Assembly (NCBI GenBank): GCA_029932675.1
Contig: JAOZPP010000104.1
Location: forward strand, 1 to 5,622
Length of the DNA stretch: 5,622 nucleotides
Source of the DNA: a bacterium
Lineage (GTDB): Bacteria > SM23-81 > DAOVCL01
Reading direction: 5' to 3'
In this document: positions 1 to 5,622 of the stretch, piece by piece
How positions within the stretch are numbered: position 1 is the stretch's first letter
How the letters are laid out: each line of letters starts with the position of its first letter
Notes under the pieces: model-generated
The model's input: only the letters and a program-made list of their open reading frames with translations
The model's database searches: none
What the model was told of the DNA's origin: nothing
Program-made: the position numbers and the translations under genes

Positions 1-339
1 ACATTTGATACCATTATCCCTTATCGTTATAACGAGGAGGATAGGAAGAAGGGATATATAATCTCCACCGATCGGAAACACCGAGCTGGTATCTTCCCCC
101 TAATGAGCATCTCTATTGGTGTAGTAACAAACAAGGCCAGGACATTCTTTCATCCCGCCCATGTAAGTCAGATAGCTACAGAGATGAAGAACTATGTGAA
201 AACAATGGAAGGGAGTAGATATGCGGTGGATAGGAGAGGTGATGATGAAGAGTTTCTTTCCCGCCAGAAGAAAGCGGAACTGATAATGCGCAAGTGGAGA
301 CAGAAATGGTTAAAGGAGCACATCAAAAAATTTAGTTAA
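1..339 (+). CDS. C-terminal part of a GGDEF-family (diguanylate cyclase-like) protein, 5' end outside window
   Basis: The frame is open from base 1 to a TAA at 337-339, giving 112 residues of a longer protein. Residues 18-45 hold a glycine-tyrosine-isoleucine strand, an Asp-Arg pair and then FPLMSISIGVVTN. Next comes a helix (SQIATEMKNYVKTMEGS) and YAVDRR, followed by a charged Lys/Arg/Glu-rich tail. This order matches the end of the GGDEF domain in response-regulator/GGDEF proteins, which make or sense cyclic di-GMP in the cytoplasm. The GGDEF signature and any receiver domain would lie upstream of the window, so catalytic competence cannot be judged. The ATG at 103 falls in the middle of the conserved FPLMSISIG strand and is an internal methionine, not the start. 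The gene converges on the large minus-strand gene that ends at 459. The family call is from recalled motif similarity, and the specific function is inferred. Confidence 0.78.
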   Translation, partial: TFDTIIPYRYNEEDRKKGYIISTDRKHRAGIFPLMSISIGVVTNKARTFFHPAHVSQIATEMKNYVKTMEGSRYAVDRRGDDEEFLSRQKKAELIMRKWRQKWLKEHIKKFS

Positions 340-458: not shown

Positions 459-3400
459 TTAAAATTCTGTCCCTAATGAGAAGTAATACTTAGGTTTAGA
501 GACCTGGGAAAGATCTGTTTTCCAAGCAGCATCAAATTTGAGGACAAACAATCCTAAATTCGCCCTCGCTCCATATCCAAATCCCACCTTGAGATCTTTC
601 AACCTAGGGTTGTCATCCTTGCTTGTCCCCCCCTTAAATTTGCTGGCCTCATTCCAGACCCCACCTACATCCAGGAAGAGGTTTCCTCTTACTCCTCGGA
701 GATTAAACTTCAGCGGCCAATGGAAGGCAAGGTAATCTAAGAAAGGATACCTAAACTCTATATTGGCCAAGGCAAACTTGTTTCCAGCAAGCTCATAGTA
801 GTTATAGCCGCGCAAGGGAAAGACCATAGATGAAAAGTAGAAGCTTTTCACCTGGGAGAGATAGCGGTGGACGACAGTGGGAGCTATCCAGTTCTGAGTC
901 CCTCCTAAGAAGAACATCTGAGCATCCGGCCCCCAACTTCCCCCTCCGGAGAGCCGAAAAGCGAAGCCATACCTCTGCAAAAAGTGGAGATACCGCCGGT
1001 AGTCCCCCTGGAGGGTATAGAAGCGGAGGCTGTTTCGCAGTCCTGGTGGGGAAAACTCAAATCTCAGATAGGATCTTGTCCCGTTGATAGGTCCTGTGTA
1101 ACCCCAGAGGGCGGTGTCATTTGTCAACTCTACAGCAGGGAGAAACACCTTAGTGTATGAATCCTCATAAGGGGGATCGTAATAGGTACGGTCAATGGCC
1201 ACATTAGTAAGCTCAAAGTCAGCGCGGGTAAACTTGCTAAAGGGATAGCTCAAAAGTAGACTGAATCCATATACGCGATCGGAGAATAGCCTATAGTATT
1301 CATCGATATAATACTCCTTATAGTGGAAGAGTCCTCCTCCATAATGACATCTGTGAGGGAGATAAGTATAGAAGAGGAAGAAATTGCTCTCGGTGAGGGA
1401 ATAATAGAGGTCACTTGCCAAAAGAAATGAATGATTTCCTAAAACATCACTGATCTGAATGAATGACTGTCCCTGCAGGCCAAAGTAGGTATCATATCCT
1501 AAGGTAGCGGTAATCAAATCAGGTGTAAACCTGGTCTTGTAGGGCTTGGTTCTGTACTCCCCATTGGGAGGCTTGTAGCTTGTAGTCTCTGAGAGGGCAG
1601 TTGTGGTTTCCTCCACGCTGGGCTGAGTTTCTTCCTCGTTAGGTGGTTTGAAGACATAAGTCTCTAAGCTCTCCAACTTGAGCTCAGGTGCAGAAGGGGA
1701 AGGTTGGACAAGGGGTTTAGGGAGATATTTTTCCTTCTTCCTACTGTTTATGGTTTTTGTGGGTTTAAGCTGAGCAGGCAGGGGCTTAGGTGCTGATAAG
1801 ATGTAGATGTCCCAGCCTCCTTTACTAAACAGGGAAAGGGCAATTCTCTTTCCATCAGGTGATATGGATGGAGAGAAACAGCCAGTGAGCAGATCGGTAA
1901 GGGGAGAGACAGATCCAGAGTCTAAGGATAACTGATAGAGGTTGTAGATTCCATTCCGGTCGGAGATGAATAATATGTTCTCCCCGTCAGGGGACCAACA
2001 GGGGGAGATTTCGTCCTCCTTAGAGATAGTTAACCTCCTTAAGTCTCCATCGTTTAGCTGGTAGATAAAGAGGTCATATTGGCCGGAGGATGTATCGGCA
2101 GAGACCGAATCTCGATCAGAGGAGAAGCAGATCTGCTCTCCATCAGGGGACCAGGAGGGTTCCCTATCGTCGGCCAAGTCATCGGTGATCTTCTGGAGAT
2201 TTCCGTCGGAAAGGCGGAGGAGATAGATATCCGATTGCCCATTTTTCAGGCCAGATAAAGCGATTAGTTTTCCTTTTGGTGACCAAGAGGGGGAGAAGAG
2301 GCCATCCAAACCTAAATCATATTTCTTGATTATCCTTTTCTTTTCTATGCTCAACAAGCAGAGGGTTTCCCTCCCCTTGGATTTGGCCACGAAGCCAATC
2401 ACCCGGCCATCGGGAGACCAGCAAATACCGCTGCGGAAGGAGTGGAGCTCCTCCAGCCCCCCTGATCTTTCCCCCTTTACTAATCTGCCCAAAATCTTCC
2501 CGCTTATTGAGGAGATGAGGTAGATATCGGTGTAGTCGCTGCGATTGGAGAAGAAGGCTATTTTATCCCCCTGAGGTGAAAAGGCTGGTTTAAGGTTTAG
2601 ATAGGAACCGTCCTTGGTATGGTCGGTGAGTTGGCGAGCGACTTCCCTTCCCTCCTTGCGACAACTGATCTCCGGCCAATAATCCTTTTTCAATTGATGA
2701 ACCCACCTCTTGTTCAACCTCTTTAGATCGATGCCTAATGTAGCTTTTAAGGCTTTATCCATATCCCTCTTTAACCTACAGTTGGTGATCAGTTCTCCCA
2801 CCTTCTCCCTTCCATAGGTATGGGCGATATAGTTCATCACCGACTGCCCTTCCTTATAGACTAAGTAGCCACCTGCCTCTTCCAAAGGGATGATATAATC
2901 ATTGATTATGGCATCGCGCACCACCATATCGGCCTCTGTGTCCCAACCTCTTGATGCAAACTCAGCATAGCCCTCTGCTACCCAGAGGGGAAGCTGGAAG
3001 AAGGACCCTCTGGTAAGGAGGGAGCCAATGGCCCCTCCATAAAGCATATCATTGGTAAAGGCGTGGGTGAGCTCATGGGTAATTAACTGTCTGAATTCCC
3101 TCCAGGAGCCGGTGAAGTGGACCACCACCCTGTTTTTGAACTGTTCGGTAAATCCCTGTACCCCTTCCTCTAAAATTTCTGGCACAACATTGGTCTGTTG
3201 GAAATCGTCAAGAGAATTGTAGACGATCAAAGGAATCCTTTTTCTGGGCTGATATTTGAGGTCGTCGCTTATTCTCAGATAGGCTTCTTCTGCCGCCGAG
3301 GCAGCGAAGCTGGCCAGTTCCTTCCCCCCTTCATAGTAGTAGATATCGAAATGGGGGGATTGGATGTATGACCAATGGAACTGTTTATATTGTACTTTGT

Positions 3401-3500
3401 TCTTGCCAAAGCTCCAGGCGTCTCCCTTCCCAGCAAAGAGGAGGGAAAGAATGAGAAGGACCGCAAACCTTGGCTTTTTTAAATTCACCTTTTTACCCAC
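459..3500 (-). CDS. Exported fusion protein: peptidase MA-like metallopeptidase, TolB-like beta-propeller, BamA/TamA-like outer-membrane barrel
   Basis: This 1013-residue protein has five visible parts. Residues 1-28 form a signal peptide: a Lys-rich start, a hydrophobic core at 12-24 and likely cleavage after GDA28. Residues about 40-275 resemble peptidase MA-family zinc metallopeptidases: HELTH (H142, E143, H146) followed by WVAEG, where E176 fits the third zinc ligand. Residues about 290-570 carry six PD40/WD40-like repeats (FSPQG 307, WSPDG 361, WSPKG 406, WSPDG 450, WSPDG 502, ISPDG 546), as in the TolB propeller. Residues 571-655 are a Pro/Glu/Thr-rich linker. Residues about 656-1013 are rich in alternating aromatic strands, contain LRGY (896-899; compare VRGF/Y of Omp85 proteins) and end in Phe, a typical BAM insertion signal. 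No POTRA domain is seen. The GTG start at 3500 has GAGGG nine bases upstream and overlaps the murA stop. A GTG four codons later (3488) is the alternative. The protein probably has its barrel in the outer membrane and its N-terminal domains in the periplasm. Substrate and role are unknown. Confidence 0.9.
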   Translation of the reverse strand: MGKKVNLKKPRFAVLLILSLLFAGKGDAWSFGKNKVQYKQFHWSYIQSPHFDIYYYEGGKELASFAASAAEEAYLRISDDLKYQPRKRIPLIVYNSLDDFQQTNVVPEILEEGVQGFTEQFKNRVVVHFTGSWREFRQLITHELTHAFTNDMLYGGAIGSLLTRGSFFQLPLWVAEGYAEFASRGWDTEADMVVRDAIINDYIIPLEEAGGYLVYKEGQSVMNYIAHTYGREKVGELITNCRLKRDMDKALKATLGIDLKRLNKRWVHQLKKDYWPEISCRKEGREVARQLTDHTKDGSYLNLKPAFSPQGDKIAFFSNRSDYTDIYLISSISGKILGRLVKGERSGGLEELHSFRSGICWSPDGRVIGFVAKSKGRETLCLLSIEKKRIIKKYDLGLDGLFSPSWSPKGKLIALSGLKNGQSDIYLLRLSDGNLQKITDDLADDREPSWSPDGEQICFSSDRDSVSADTSSGQYDLFIYQLNDGDLRRLTISKEDEISPCWSPDGENILFISDRNGIYNLYQLSLDSGSVSPLTDLLTGCFSPSISPDGKRIALSLFSKGGWDIYILSAPKPLPAQLKPTKTINSRKKEKYLPKPLVQPSPSAPELKLESLETYVFKPPNEEETQPSVEETTTALSETTSYKPPNGEYRTKPYKTRFTPDLITATLGYDTYFGLQGQSFIQISDVLGNHSFLLASDLYYSLTESNFFLFYTYLPHRCHYGGGLFHYKEYYIDEYYRLFSDRVYGFSLLLSYPFSKFTRADFELTNVAIDRTYYDPPYEDSYTKVFLPAVELTNDTALWGYTGPINGTRSYLRFEFSPPGLRNSLRFYTLQGDYRRYLHFLQRYGFAFRLSGGGSWGPDAQMFFLGGTQNWIAPTVVHRYLSQVKSFYFSSMVFPLRGYNYYELAGNKFALANIEFRYPFLDYLAFHWPLKFNLRGVRGNLFLDVGGVWNEASKFKGGTSKDDNPRLKDLKVGFGYGARANLGLFVLKFDAAWKTDLSQVSKPKYYFSLGTEF

Positions 3501-3516
3501 TTGAGTTAACCCTCTC
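3493..3516 (-). promoter_or_regulatory. Ribosome-binding site and 8-base stop/start overlap between murA and the fusion gene
   Basis: On the minus strand, GAGGG (3514-3510) lies nine bases before the GTG at 3500-3498. The GTG itself is part of GTGGGTAA, whose last three bases (3495-3493) are the murA stop. The Shine-Dalgarno therefore sits inside the murA coding sequence, and termination and initiation occur at almost the same point, an arrangement typical of translational coupling. It also supports choosing GTG 3500 over the second GTG at 3488. Confidence 0.6.
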
Positions 3517-4761
3517 TATCTTTGCCCCAAGGGATTCAAGCTTTTCCTCCATCCCTTCATATCCCCGGTCTATGTGATAAACCCTGAGGATCTCTGTTCT
3601 CCCCTCTGCTTTTAAGGCGGCGAGGACTAGGCTGGCACCGGCTCTTATATCGCTGCACATCAGGGAGGCGCCTTCTAACTTTTCCGTTCCAAAGACAGTG
3701 GCCTCGTTCCCACTTACTCGGATGTCCGCCCCCAACCTGATGAGCTCCATCACCTGCGAAAACCTTTCCTGGAAGATAGTCTCCCTAATATGGCTCGTCC
3801 CAGAAGCTACTGCGGCCAAGGCCATAATTGATGGTTGGAGATCAGTGGGAAATCCTGGATAAGGATAGGTAAGGATCTCCACTGGAGACAGCCTCGGCGG
3901 TCCCTGAGCAGTTATCCAACCATCTCCTTCCTCAATAGCTACGCCCATCCCCTCTAACTTGTGGAGGACTATCCTTAGGTGGTTGGCCTTAGCTCCATCT
4001 ACTGTTACCTTGCCACCAGTAATTGCCCCAGCCATTAGATAGGTGCCCGCCTCAAGCCTATCCCCTATGGGCGAATAGTCGGTGGCCTTCAAATTGCTTA
4101 CCCCCTCCACCTCCACCATATCTGTGCCTGCCCCAGTTATCCTTGCTCCCATCTTATTGAGAAAGCAGGCCAAATCAACCACCTCTGGATCAGTGGCCGC
4201 GTTAATGATCCTTGTCTTTCCGCGGGCTAAGCTGGCTGCCATCAACAGGTTTTCCGTCCCGGTATGGGTGGGACGGTCGAAGACGATTACCCTCCCCTGC
4301 AACCTCTCGGCCTGCGCGCTCACATAGCCGTGTTCCTCCTCAATATTAGCTCCCAGCAGTTTAAAACCCTCTAAATGGAGGTTGATCGGACGGGGTCCGA
4401 GCACACACCCTCCAGGGAGGGAGACCTGAGCCCGACCCATCCTGGCCAGAAGCGGGCCCATAACCAAGAATGAGGCCCTCATCTTTCTGACTAACTCATA
4501 GGGAGCAATATAGCTACTTAAACTTTGAGCATCTATGGTGACGACCCTCTCAGGGATTGACCTTTCCACCTTGACGCCTAAGTTCTCCAGCACCTTGAGC
4601 ATCCAGGTTATATCGGCGATATTCGGGACATTCCTGATGATGGTCCGCCCTTTATTGGCCAGGAGGGAGGCCGCCAGTATGGGTAGAACGGCGTTCTTGG
4701 CCCCAGCCACCTTTACCCTGCCAGAAAGCCTTCTTCCTCCTTCAATCAGAAACCTATCCAT
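3493..4761 (-). CDS. murA: UDP-N-acetylglucosamine 1-carboxyvinyltransferase (MurA)
   Basis: MurA transfers enolpyruvate from phosphoenolpyruvate to UDP-N-acetylglucosamine, the first committed step of peptidoglycan synthesis, in the cytoplasm. The 422 residues match the usual length of about 420. Family landmarks are present: K22-N23 in GAKNA, R95 in KMRAS, the catalytic cysteine loop LPGGCVLGPRP with C119 (E. coli C115), FPTDLQP with D307 (E. coli D305), SDIRAG with R373, and HIDRGYE with R399 (E. coli R397). Because the loop has Cys rather than Asp, the enzyme should be of the fosfomycin-sensitive type. The ATG at 4761 fits the canonical N-terminus (MDRFLIEGG) but has no good Shine-Dalgarno. 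A candidate promoter lies so close that the mRNA may be almost leaderless. The stop codon is inside the first codons of the downstream fusion gene (8-base overlap), so the two are almost certainly cotranscribed. Confidence 0.97.
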   Translation of the reverse strand: MDRFLIEGGRRLSGRVKVAGAKNAVLPILAASLLANKGRTIIRNVPNIADITWMLKVLENLGVKVERSIPERVVTIDAQSLSSYIAPYELVRKMRASFLVMGPLLARMGRAQVSLPGGCVLGPRPINLHLEGFKLLGANIEEEHGYVSAQAERLQGRVIVFDRPTHTGTENLLMAASLARGKTRIINAATDPEVVDLACFLNKMGARITGAGTDMVEVEGVSNLKATDYSPIGDRLEAGTYLMAGAITGGKVTVDGAKANHLRIVLHKLEGMGVAIEEGDGWITAQGPPRLSPVEILTYPYPGFPTDLQPSIMALAAVASGTSHIRETIFQERFSQVMELIRLGADIRVSGNEATVFGTEKLEGASLMCSDIRAGASLVLAALKAEGRTEILRVYHIDRGYEGMEEKLESLGAKIERVNSSG

Positions 4762-4926: not shown

Positions 4927-4941
4927 GGAGGAGAAAAGATG
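4927..4941 (+). promoter_or_regulatory. Strong Shine-Dalgarno for the DUF6249-like gene
   Basis: GGAGG (4927-4931), within the longer purine run AGGGGAGGAG, lies seven bases before the ATG at 4939. It fixes the start of the small membrane protein and contrasts with the missing site in front of murA. Confidence 0.75.
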
Positions 4942-5292
4942 GACTTTATACCTAATACCTTAGGAGTTCTTATCCCTATAGTGGCCATTATTGGGGGTAT
5001 TACCGTGGCAATAGTGGCCATCTTTGTGGATTTAAAGAAGGCTCAACTGGCACAGAAGCTAAAGCTTACCGCCTTGGAAAAGGGGGTGGAGCTTCCTCCC
5101 GAACCCCCTCAACCTCGCCCTTATCCCTACCGCTCTGGGCTGGTATGGATTATGGTGGGAGTAGGGGTATTTGTCGGCATCTGGGTGTCCACTGGTAGTG
5201 TGGAGGGGGCCATTTGGGGGATAATCCCCTTTCTCATCGGCTTGGCCTTGATCATCTCGGTCAGGTTGCGGGGGAAAGGGAGCGATGGCTAA
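4939..5292 (+). CDS. Small membrane protein, DUF6249-like
   Basis: The 117-residue product has an N-terminal hydrophobic segment (about residues 9-31). A cationic amphipathic stretch then contains the LEKGVELPPEP motif (about 46-56) and a proline-rich run. Two more hydrophobic segments follow (about 67-85 and 89-107), and a basic tail RLRGKG ends the protein. One membrane helix, an 'EKG-x-x-(L/I)P' loop and a glycine-rich helical pair is the layout I associate with DUF6249 proteins, whose function is unknown. The positive charges suggest that the loop and tail are cytoplasmic. The start is supported by GGAGG seven bases upstream. It is transcribed divergently from murA with a 177-base gap. 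I see no convincing promoter in the gap for this direction. The stop overlaps the open frame of the FN3 remnant by 8 bases. Gene reality is well supported, but the family name is from recall. Confidence 0.8.
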   Translation: MDFIPNTLGVLIPIVAIIGGITVAIVAIFVDLKKAQLAQKLKLTALEKGVELPPEPPQPRPYPYRSGLVWIMVGVGVFVGIWVSTGSVEGAIWGIIPFLIGLALIISVRLRGKGSDG

Positions 5293-5622
5293 TCCGGCCA
5301 TTATGAAGACGAAGGCGATTCCAGAGCTTGATCCTTCACCATCTGGGAGCAGAGATAGCTGTATAGTTACAGGACTTAACAGCCGCCAAAGATATTACTT
5401 TGCCATAAAAACAGCCGATGAGGTCCCTAACTGGTCAGGATTCTCTAATGTGGCTACGGAAACAACGGGAATAGGTTGGAAGGGCCCAATCACTGGGCTA
5501 CCCTCTTCTTATAGCCTCCAATCCATTCAACTCGGCCACCCTCATTCGATACACTCTGCCAGCTATCAGCTCTGCCGTTCCGAGCACGGGTCAGCAGTCA
5601 GCTTAAAGATCTACAATCTATT
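5285..5622 (+). pseudogene. Truncated and frame-disrupted FN3 / FlgD-Ig C-terminal region of a secreted or surface protein
   Basis: From the ATG at 5285 a frame stays open to the window end (112 complete codons). It encodes the last strands of a fibronectin type III domain: IVTGL, YYFAIKTADEVPNWSGFSNV, then ATETTG. The first half of the domain and any signal peptide are absent, because the DUF6249-like gene lies immediately upstream. After LPSSYSL (ending 5518) this frame loses sense, but the next frame reads NPFNSATLIRYTLP (5520-5561), the hallmark of FlgD-Ig / sorting-type C-terminal domains. That frame meets TAA at 5604. The original frame again makes sense as VSLKIYNL (5597-5620), the next conserved strand of the same domain. 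There are thus two frame changes, one near 5518-5520 and one between about 5561 and 5603. No proper ribosome-binding site precedes 5285. A decayed gene fragment is most likely. Sequencing or assembly errors are possible for the frame changes but would not explain the missing 5' end. Confidence 0.6.

Follow-up and report, generated by a model that had tools for sequence, protein, structure and literature searches.

The gene on the minus strand of the window, the whole 5.6-kb contig analysed here, is a member of a conserved, phylum-wide core family, which is old and nearly universal in several little-studied phyla. Its product combines a predicted gluzincin metallopeptidase, a TolB-type propeller and an Omp85 barrel in one polypeptide. 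The protein may be an outer-membrane-tethered periplasmic factor for assembly and quality control, a protease-chaperone on an Omp85 platform, comparable to BepA on BAM but built in. A probability of roughly 0.4 is assigned to this reading; it is held at this level because the link to BamB is one paralogue removed and because the topology and the activity are predicted only.

The features of the gene and the encoded protein are listed in Table 1. The strand, on which the initial annotation was silent, is minus. The first 8 nt of the gene also belong to the end of murA. The source genome is 3.03 Mb in size and 97% complete. Among the matches listed, the nearest named relative is a protein from a Candidatus Zixiibacteriota MAG, with 82% identity. 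For the domain calls we relied on the window protein, some selected paralogues and the conservation of residues.

Table 1. Features of the three-domain gene, its product and the adjoining murA gene. Positions are those of the window; invariance refers to the 79-sequence conservation set.
Feature	Position	Strand	Residues	Description and basis
Coding sequence	459..3500	minus	1-1013	1013 aa; GTG start at 3500, stop at 459-461
murA	3493..4761	minus		NCBIfam murA, 544 bits (over cut-off); immediately upstream of the coding sequence
Signal-like N-terminus	3420..3500	minus	1-27	Followed by conserved FGKNKVQY at 31-38; sequence
Predicted gluzincin metallopeptidase domain	2646..3410	minus	31-285	PF13485, domain model, fold matches
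HELTH	3063..3077	minus	142-146	Supplies the first two predicted zinc ligands, with E143 as general base; H142, E143 and H146 invariant in 79/79
WVAEG	2970..2984	minus	173-177	W173, E176 and G177 invariant in 79/79; E176 is the predicted third zinc ligand
Y215, candidate catalytic tyrosine	2856..2858	minus	215	Invariant in 79/79
TolB-type propeller, six blades	1776..2648	minus	285-575	PD40, TolB structural match
Disordered Pro/Lys/Glu/Thr-rich linker	1536..1775	minus	576-655	pLDDT <50 at 594-639, composition
Omp85 16-strand barrel	462..1535	minus	656-1013	PF01103, strands, BamA/SAM50 matches
LRGY, Omp85 loop-6 motif	804..815	minus	896-899	R897 and G898 invariant in 79/79; long loop between strands 844-856 and 908-926
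E915	756..758	minus	915	Invariant in 79/79
D944	669..671	minus	944	Invariant in 79/79

The initial annotation had read a zinc metallopeptidase, a TolB-like propeller and an outer-membrane barrel in this single frame, and the reading is borne out by Pfam, structure and conservation. Three profiles exceed their Pfam cut-offs in the 1013-aa protein: Peptidase_MA_2 (PF13485) at residues 69-270 with the E-value 8e-15, PD40 in five stretches with 3e-31, and Omp85 (PF01103) at residues 790-1013 with 1.5e-15. No model reached its cut-off in the NCBIfam scan of the same protein. Neither a POTRA nor a patatin model was found among the Pfam matches with E-values up to 1, and the predicted structure fills the whole sequence with domains other than POTRA. 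The sequence motifs named earlier (HELTH, WVAEG, six SPDG-type repeats, LRGY and the terminal Phe) were all located in the reading frame, and the six SPxG motifs start at residues 308, 362, 407, 451, 503 and 547. Of the signal peptide proposed together with them, sequence and model retain a signal-like N-terminal segment (helix 12-20) ahead of FGKNKVQY.

The full-length AlphaFold2 model, based on a 79-sequence alignment, has a mean pLDDT of 87 and a pTM of 0.87. It is composed of a mixed helical domain (31-285), a propeller extending to residue 575, a disordered linker and a 16-strand barrel. A gluzincin fold, a six-bladed propeller and a closed 16-strand barrel, the three structures on which the initial annotation had staked its reading, are all present in the AlphaFold2 models. 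The propeller matches TolB (3iax) with a Z score of 28.3 and an rmsd of 2.1 over 244 residues, at 22% identity. The 16 long strands of the barrel span residues 658-1009, and the barrel matches BamA and SAM50 with Z scores of 21-23.

Residue conservation was analyzed with 79 sequences, orthologues which are 37-82% identical to the window protein. Folded alone, the peptidase domain gives a pLDDT of 88 and a pTM of 0.84. Its fold matches M9 collagenases (Z 17.2), M30 lugdulysin (Z 16.6) and M1 aminopeptidases (Z 13.7); fold Z scores alone are weak for a largely helical domain, and the HExxH...E site concurs with them. The domain, as modelled, is a gluzincin. HExxH and the downstream Glu are kept in 80/80 named loci, the best 80 of at least 566 relatives, and the HExxH...E site is invariant in 23 sequences covering three paralogue groups. 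Y215 is a candidate for the catalytic tyrosine equivalent to Y315 of lugdulysin, because the spacing from E143 to Y215 is 72 and that from E242 to Y315 in lugdulysin (M30; E242Q/Y315F structure entry) is 73. None of the solved structures matched when they were searched with the sequence profile of the peptidase domain. No match to PF13485 was obtained in the 14 control genomes, and a studied homologue for comparison is therefore lacking. In the barrel, R897 presumably corresponds to the loop-6 arginine of BamA, with two barrel-wall acids nearby, and we take E915 and D944, by eye, to be the conserved barrel-wall Glu and Asp of BamA. The C-terminal residue of the window protein is Phe, which is the last residue in 63 of the 79 sequences.

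Scanning of genome contigs revealed at least 566 relatives. The best 80 of them are collinear with the window protein along nearly its whole length, and carry the names Zixibacteria, KSB1, LCP-89, GN15, Marinimicrobia, Ignavibacteria, Calditrichota, Latescibacterota, Chloroherpetonaceae and others. The family was counted per phylum with the peptidase profile at an E-value of 1e-40 or better (1e-10 in the own phylum), and the frames holding this profile are mostly 900-1250 aa, matching the expectation for the full architecture. In the phylum with the named Zixibacteria records, recognised by exact sequence match to loci L062, L065 and L096, every genome (60/60; 59/59 of good quality) carries the family, almost invariably as two copies. 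In the phylum with the LCP-89 records it is present in 36/39 genomes (27/27 of good quality), mostly in one copy. A third phylum shows 16/17 genomes (9/9 of good quality), mostly with two copies, and the own phylum 4/4 genomes sampled. The initial annotation had suggested a survey of the phyla which carry all three domains in this order. Collinearity over nearly the full length was confirmed for the best 80 relatives, while the near-universality in three other phyla was established through the peptidase profile.

The family contains at least three paralogous groups. The own genome encodes three such proteins: the window gene belongs to group 1, the gene on contig C108 to group 2 and the gene on contig C55 to group 3, and the barrel of the last one scores below the Pfam cut-off. 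In a quick tree with SH-aLRT support only, group 1 falls on one side of a branch (96), core group 2 comes together (100) with 26 of its 29 rows, the remaining three being placed elsewhere, and group 3 comes together (100). Groups 1 and 2 are both present in the own phylum, in Zixibacteria and in the third phylum, and hence the duplication between them is old; it probably predates the split of the phyla concerned. Group-3 paralogues (L039:5892-8864 (-), L041, L044, L049, L035 and L036) adjoin genes for a PorV-like outer-membrane protein and an M6-peptidase-like protein with a type IX secretion tail. These surroundings constitute a conserved T9SS-linked cluster.

No partner gene of group 1 is constant across the loci, and the neighbours differ between phyla. 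murA lies directly upstream of the group-1 gene in 18 other loci, mostly from Zixibacteria, where it belongs to the conserved surroundings of the gene; this adjacency may be operon chance only. A scan of viral contigs for murA gave no match. RNase R is a neighbour in 16 loci, and in 11 loci, of the Ignavibacteria type, a TamB-like gene comes before RNase R; the TamB-like identity was obtained with PF04357 (E 1e-19) for one member and by direct similarity to that member for the rest. An LpxH-like phosphoesterase is a neighbour in 9 loci. MlaE is found directly downstream in 6 loci, and MlaF adjoins in 5.

Group 2 shows a different arrangement. In 17/19 Zixibacteria loci, the group-2 gene is followed by a gene for a PQQ-propeller BamB-like lipoprotein, mostly with a 13-nt overlap, and the same pair is present in 4/4 core-clade loci of the own phylum. 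The partner is missing at L034, L048, L055, L056, L057, L218 and L219. BamB (TIGR03300) is the top NCBIfam match in 7/7 lipoproteins tested, with E-values from 3e-34 to 5e-72, below the cut-off. The lipoprotein is the best BamB match genome-wide in 7/9 genomes and reaches the cut-off in one. A SurA/PpiD-type chaperone gene adjoins the pair in two loci. A gene for a 640-760 aa protein often comes after the pair in Zixibacteria (L200-L217) and may share the operon.

The own genome contains about nine Omp85-type loci with very different architectures. The true BamA (537 bits) is encoded on contig C83, in a skp-lpxD-lpxC-lpxA-like context whose genes were named by eye, and a POTRA-Omp85 protein is encoded beside TamB on contig C81. 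Since both are encoded elsewhere, the window protein is neither BamA nor the TamB-side Omp85. The identification as BamA was rejected also with the score against TIGR03303 (32 bits against a cut-off of 297) and the absence of POTRA, and that as TolB with the score against TIGR02800 (164 bits against 343). The idea that the TolB-like propeller substitutes for TolB was not adopted; the genome has no TolB over the cut-off, but TolB was found in only 2/14 control genomes, so that its absence carries little weight. Two further fusion proteins were recognized in the own genome. One is a patatin-POTRA-Omp85 protein (L154:7683-10271 (-), contig C21). The other (L157:4047-6968 (+), contig C59) is a 974-aa protein with Peptidase_M1 (E 6e-22) and, after it, an Omp85-like barrel that narrowly misses the Pfam cut-off; this is a second fusion of a metallopeptidase with a barrel, distinct from the window protein.

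Omp85 barrels with an even number of strands have both ends in the periplasm. The default topology is therefore one with a periplasmic propeller and peptidase. The protein would be exported by its signal peptide, and the C-terminal barrel would be placed in the outer membrane, presumably by the separately encoded BamA. With the N-terminus of the barrel toward the periplasm, the propeller and the gluzincin peptidase would hang beneath it on the flexible 80-residue linker. The propeller could dock partners or substrates, the barrel could contact proteins under insertion, and the zinc protease could clip or remove stalled ones. We infer the periplasmic topology, zinc binding, proteolysis and the substrates, and likewise that the BAM link of the paralogue extends to the window gene.

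A role in outer-membrane assembly and quality control is favoured because the family is strictly retained, its active site is intact, and the sister paralogue shares an operon with a BamB-like gene. The barrel fold with R897, E915 and D944, the SurA/PpiD-type gene at two group-2 loci, the murA, TamB-like, LpxH-like and MlaE/MlaF genes around group 1 and the precedent of BepA were counted in its favour too. The initial annotation had mentioned a POTRA-less assembly device as one option, and this part gains support from the overlapping BamB-like operon of the paralogue and the phylum-wide core status. The BamB link itself belongs to the paralogue and not to the window gene, and it is missing in other lineages; this counts against an assembly factor. 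So do the group-1 neighbours, which vary from phylum to phylum, and the barrel, which in the model lacks POTRA, the domain BamA uses for substrate handling.

Another reading is a surface protease that displays itself: the peptidase and the propeller would pass through the barrel, a route proposed for PlpD (type Vd), and would digest or process proteins outside the cell. According to the main text of Heinz and Lithgow (PMC4104836), PlpD is a case in which an N-terminal enzyme can reach the surface by means of an Omp85 barrel. The linker is long and disordered and could run through the pore, and secreted collagenases are among the closest peptidase folds. Yet the AlphaFold2 model predicts no linker helix in the pore, and the strict phylum-wide retention and the BamB-like operon of the paralogue are more in keeping with a role in the envelope than with a secreted accessory enzyme. 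We consider surface display, which the initial annotation had also raised as a surface-anchored protease, unlikely.

Next in rank, and also unlikely, is a protease for the site-specific maturation of outer-membrane or surface proteins instead of quality control. The PorV-like and T9SS-tail M6-peptidase genes beside group 3 connect this paralogue group with a secretion route which uses cleavage; the connection is limited to group 3, and group 1 has no constant candidate substrate alongside. A factor for lipid assembly or a partner of TamB is improbable; in this reading, AsmA/TamB- or Mla-type lipid transfer would end at the barrel in the outer membrane, and the peptidase would act mainly as a regulator. 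In 11 loci of the Ignavibacteria type the second gene upstream is TamB-like, and MlaE is directly downstream in 6 loci, which points in this direction, but RNase R sits between the TamB-like gene and the group-1 gene, the own genome has a separate POTRA-Omp85 beside TamB, and the active-site residues are strictly conserved. A structural scaffold with a dead peptidase is very improbable: we know of no measured peptidase activity, which was counted in its favour, but all catalytic positions are invariant over the 79 sequences and are kept in the paralogues.

The caution of the initial annotation that the architecture may not be new was right. Ten Omp85 subfamilies were defined in 2014 by Heinz and Lithgow, among them WD40-Omp85 with a TolB-like propeller, which their main text likens to a BamA-BamB fusion; the extra subfamilies are described there as scattered (PMC4104836). 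The window protein shares with WD40-Omp85 the Omp85 barrel, the N-terminal TolB-like propeller and the lack of POTRA. Compared with the main-text description (PMC4104836), the window family is different in having an invariant gluzincin before the propeller and in being near-universal in several phyla. The word "peptidase" has zero occurrences in that main text, so that none is mentioned in WD40-Omp85 there (PMC4104836). In our literature searches, the term WD40-Omp85 was found in one paper, no paper was found for Peptidase_MA together with Omp85, and no relevant paper was found for Zixibacteria envelope proteins. The architecture is known in outline. The features that appear to be undescribed in the literature searched are a gluzincin that is invariant, the rank of the family as a core gene across whole phyla, paralogues of ancient origin and an operon with a BamB-like gene.

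The "Metallo" Omp85 subfamily also has an enzyme domain fused to an Omp85 barrel. The main text of PMC4104836 calls this domain, PF00149, a metalloprotease domain and suggests periplasmic quality control, and mentions no propeller with it. In Pfam, PF00149 is the calcineurin-like phosphoesterase (Metallophos) and not a zincin, and thus the "Metallo" subfamily is not the window family. Readers could confuse the two through the "metalloprotease" label in PMC4104836.

E. coli BepA (M48) is a zinc metallopeptidase which promotes or degrades LptD on BAM, and is likewise proposed to work at an Omp85 barrel (PMC8423444). BepA belongs to another family and is a free-standing periplasmic protein with neither fusion nor propeller, and the match of the window protein to M48 (PF01435; E 0.34, 11 bits) is below the cut-off of 20. 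TolB has the same six-bladed propeller, whereas the window protein has a peptidase in place of the N-terminal domain of TolB. The PlpD-type patatin-Omp85 proteins (type Vd) share the plan of an N-terminal enzyme and an Omp85 barrel; the enzyme is a patatin lipase in PlpD, and a zincin with a propeller in the window protein. M9 collagenases and M30 lugdulysin are the closest solved peptidase folds and share the gluzincin site, but they are soluble secreted enzymes without propeller or barrel, at 12-14% identity.

BAM is regarded as the sole route for building outer-membrane proteins, with BepA and DegP as separate helpers. The window family places a predicted protease, a putative docking propeller and an Omp85 barrel in one polypeptide, and all good-quality genomes that were sampled from three phyla have it. 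It is conceivable, if doubtful, that Zixibacteria, LCP-89, Ignavibacteria and their kin possess a second, obligate system for outer-membrane assembly and quality control: a POTRA-less Omp85 machine with a built-in protease, a docking propeller and its own BamB-like partner, working alongside ordinary BAM and the pair of POTRA-Omp85 and TamB. If the protein is a built-in machine for quality control or assembly, the picture of outer-membrane biogenesis would change for a large section of the bacterial tree, most of it uncultured. The family provides a concrete gene to delete or express.

Three other open reading frames were observed in the window. Those at 1-339 (+) and 5285-5620 (+) are truncated by the contig ends and gave no NCBIfam matches; the former has no Pfam match either, and the latter resembles, by eye, a piece of a fibronectin-type repeat protein. 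The third, at 4939-5292 (+), is divergent from murA and encodes a small, membrane-protein-like product which matches DUF6249 (PF19762) with 51 bits, over the cut-off.
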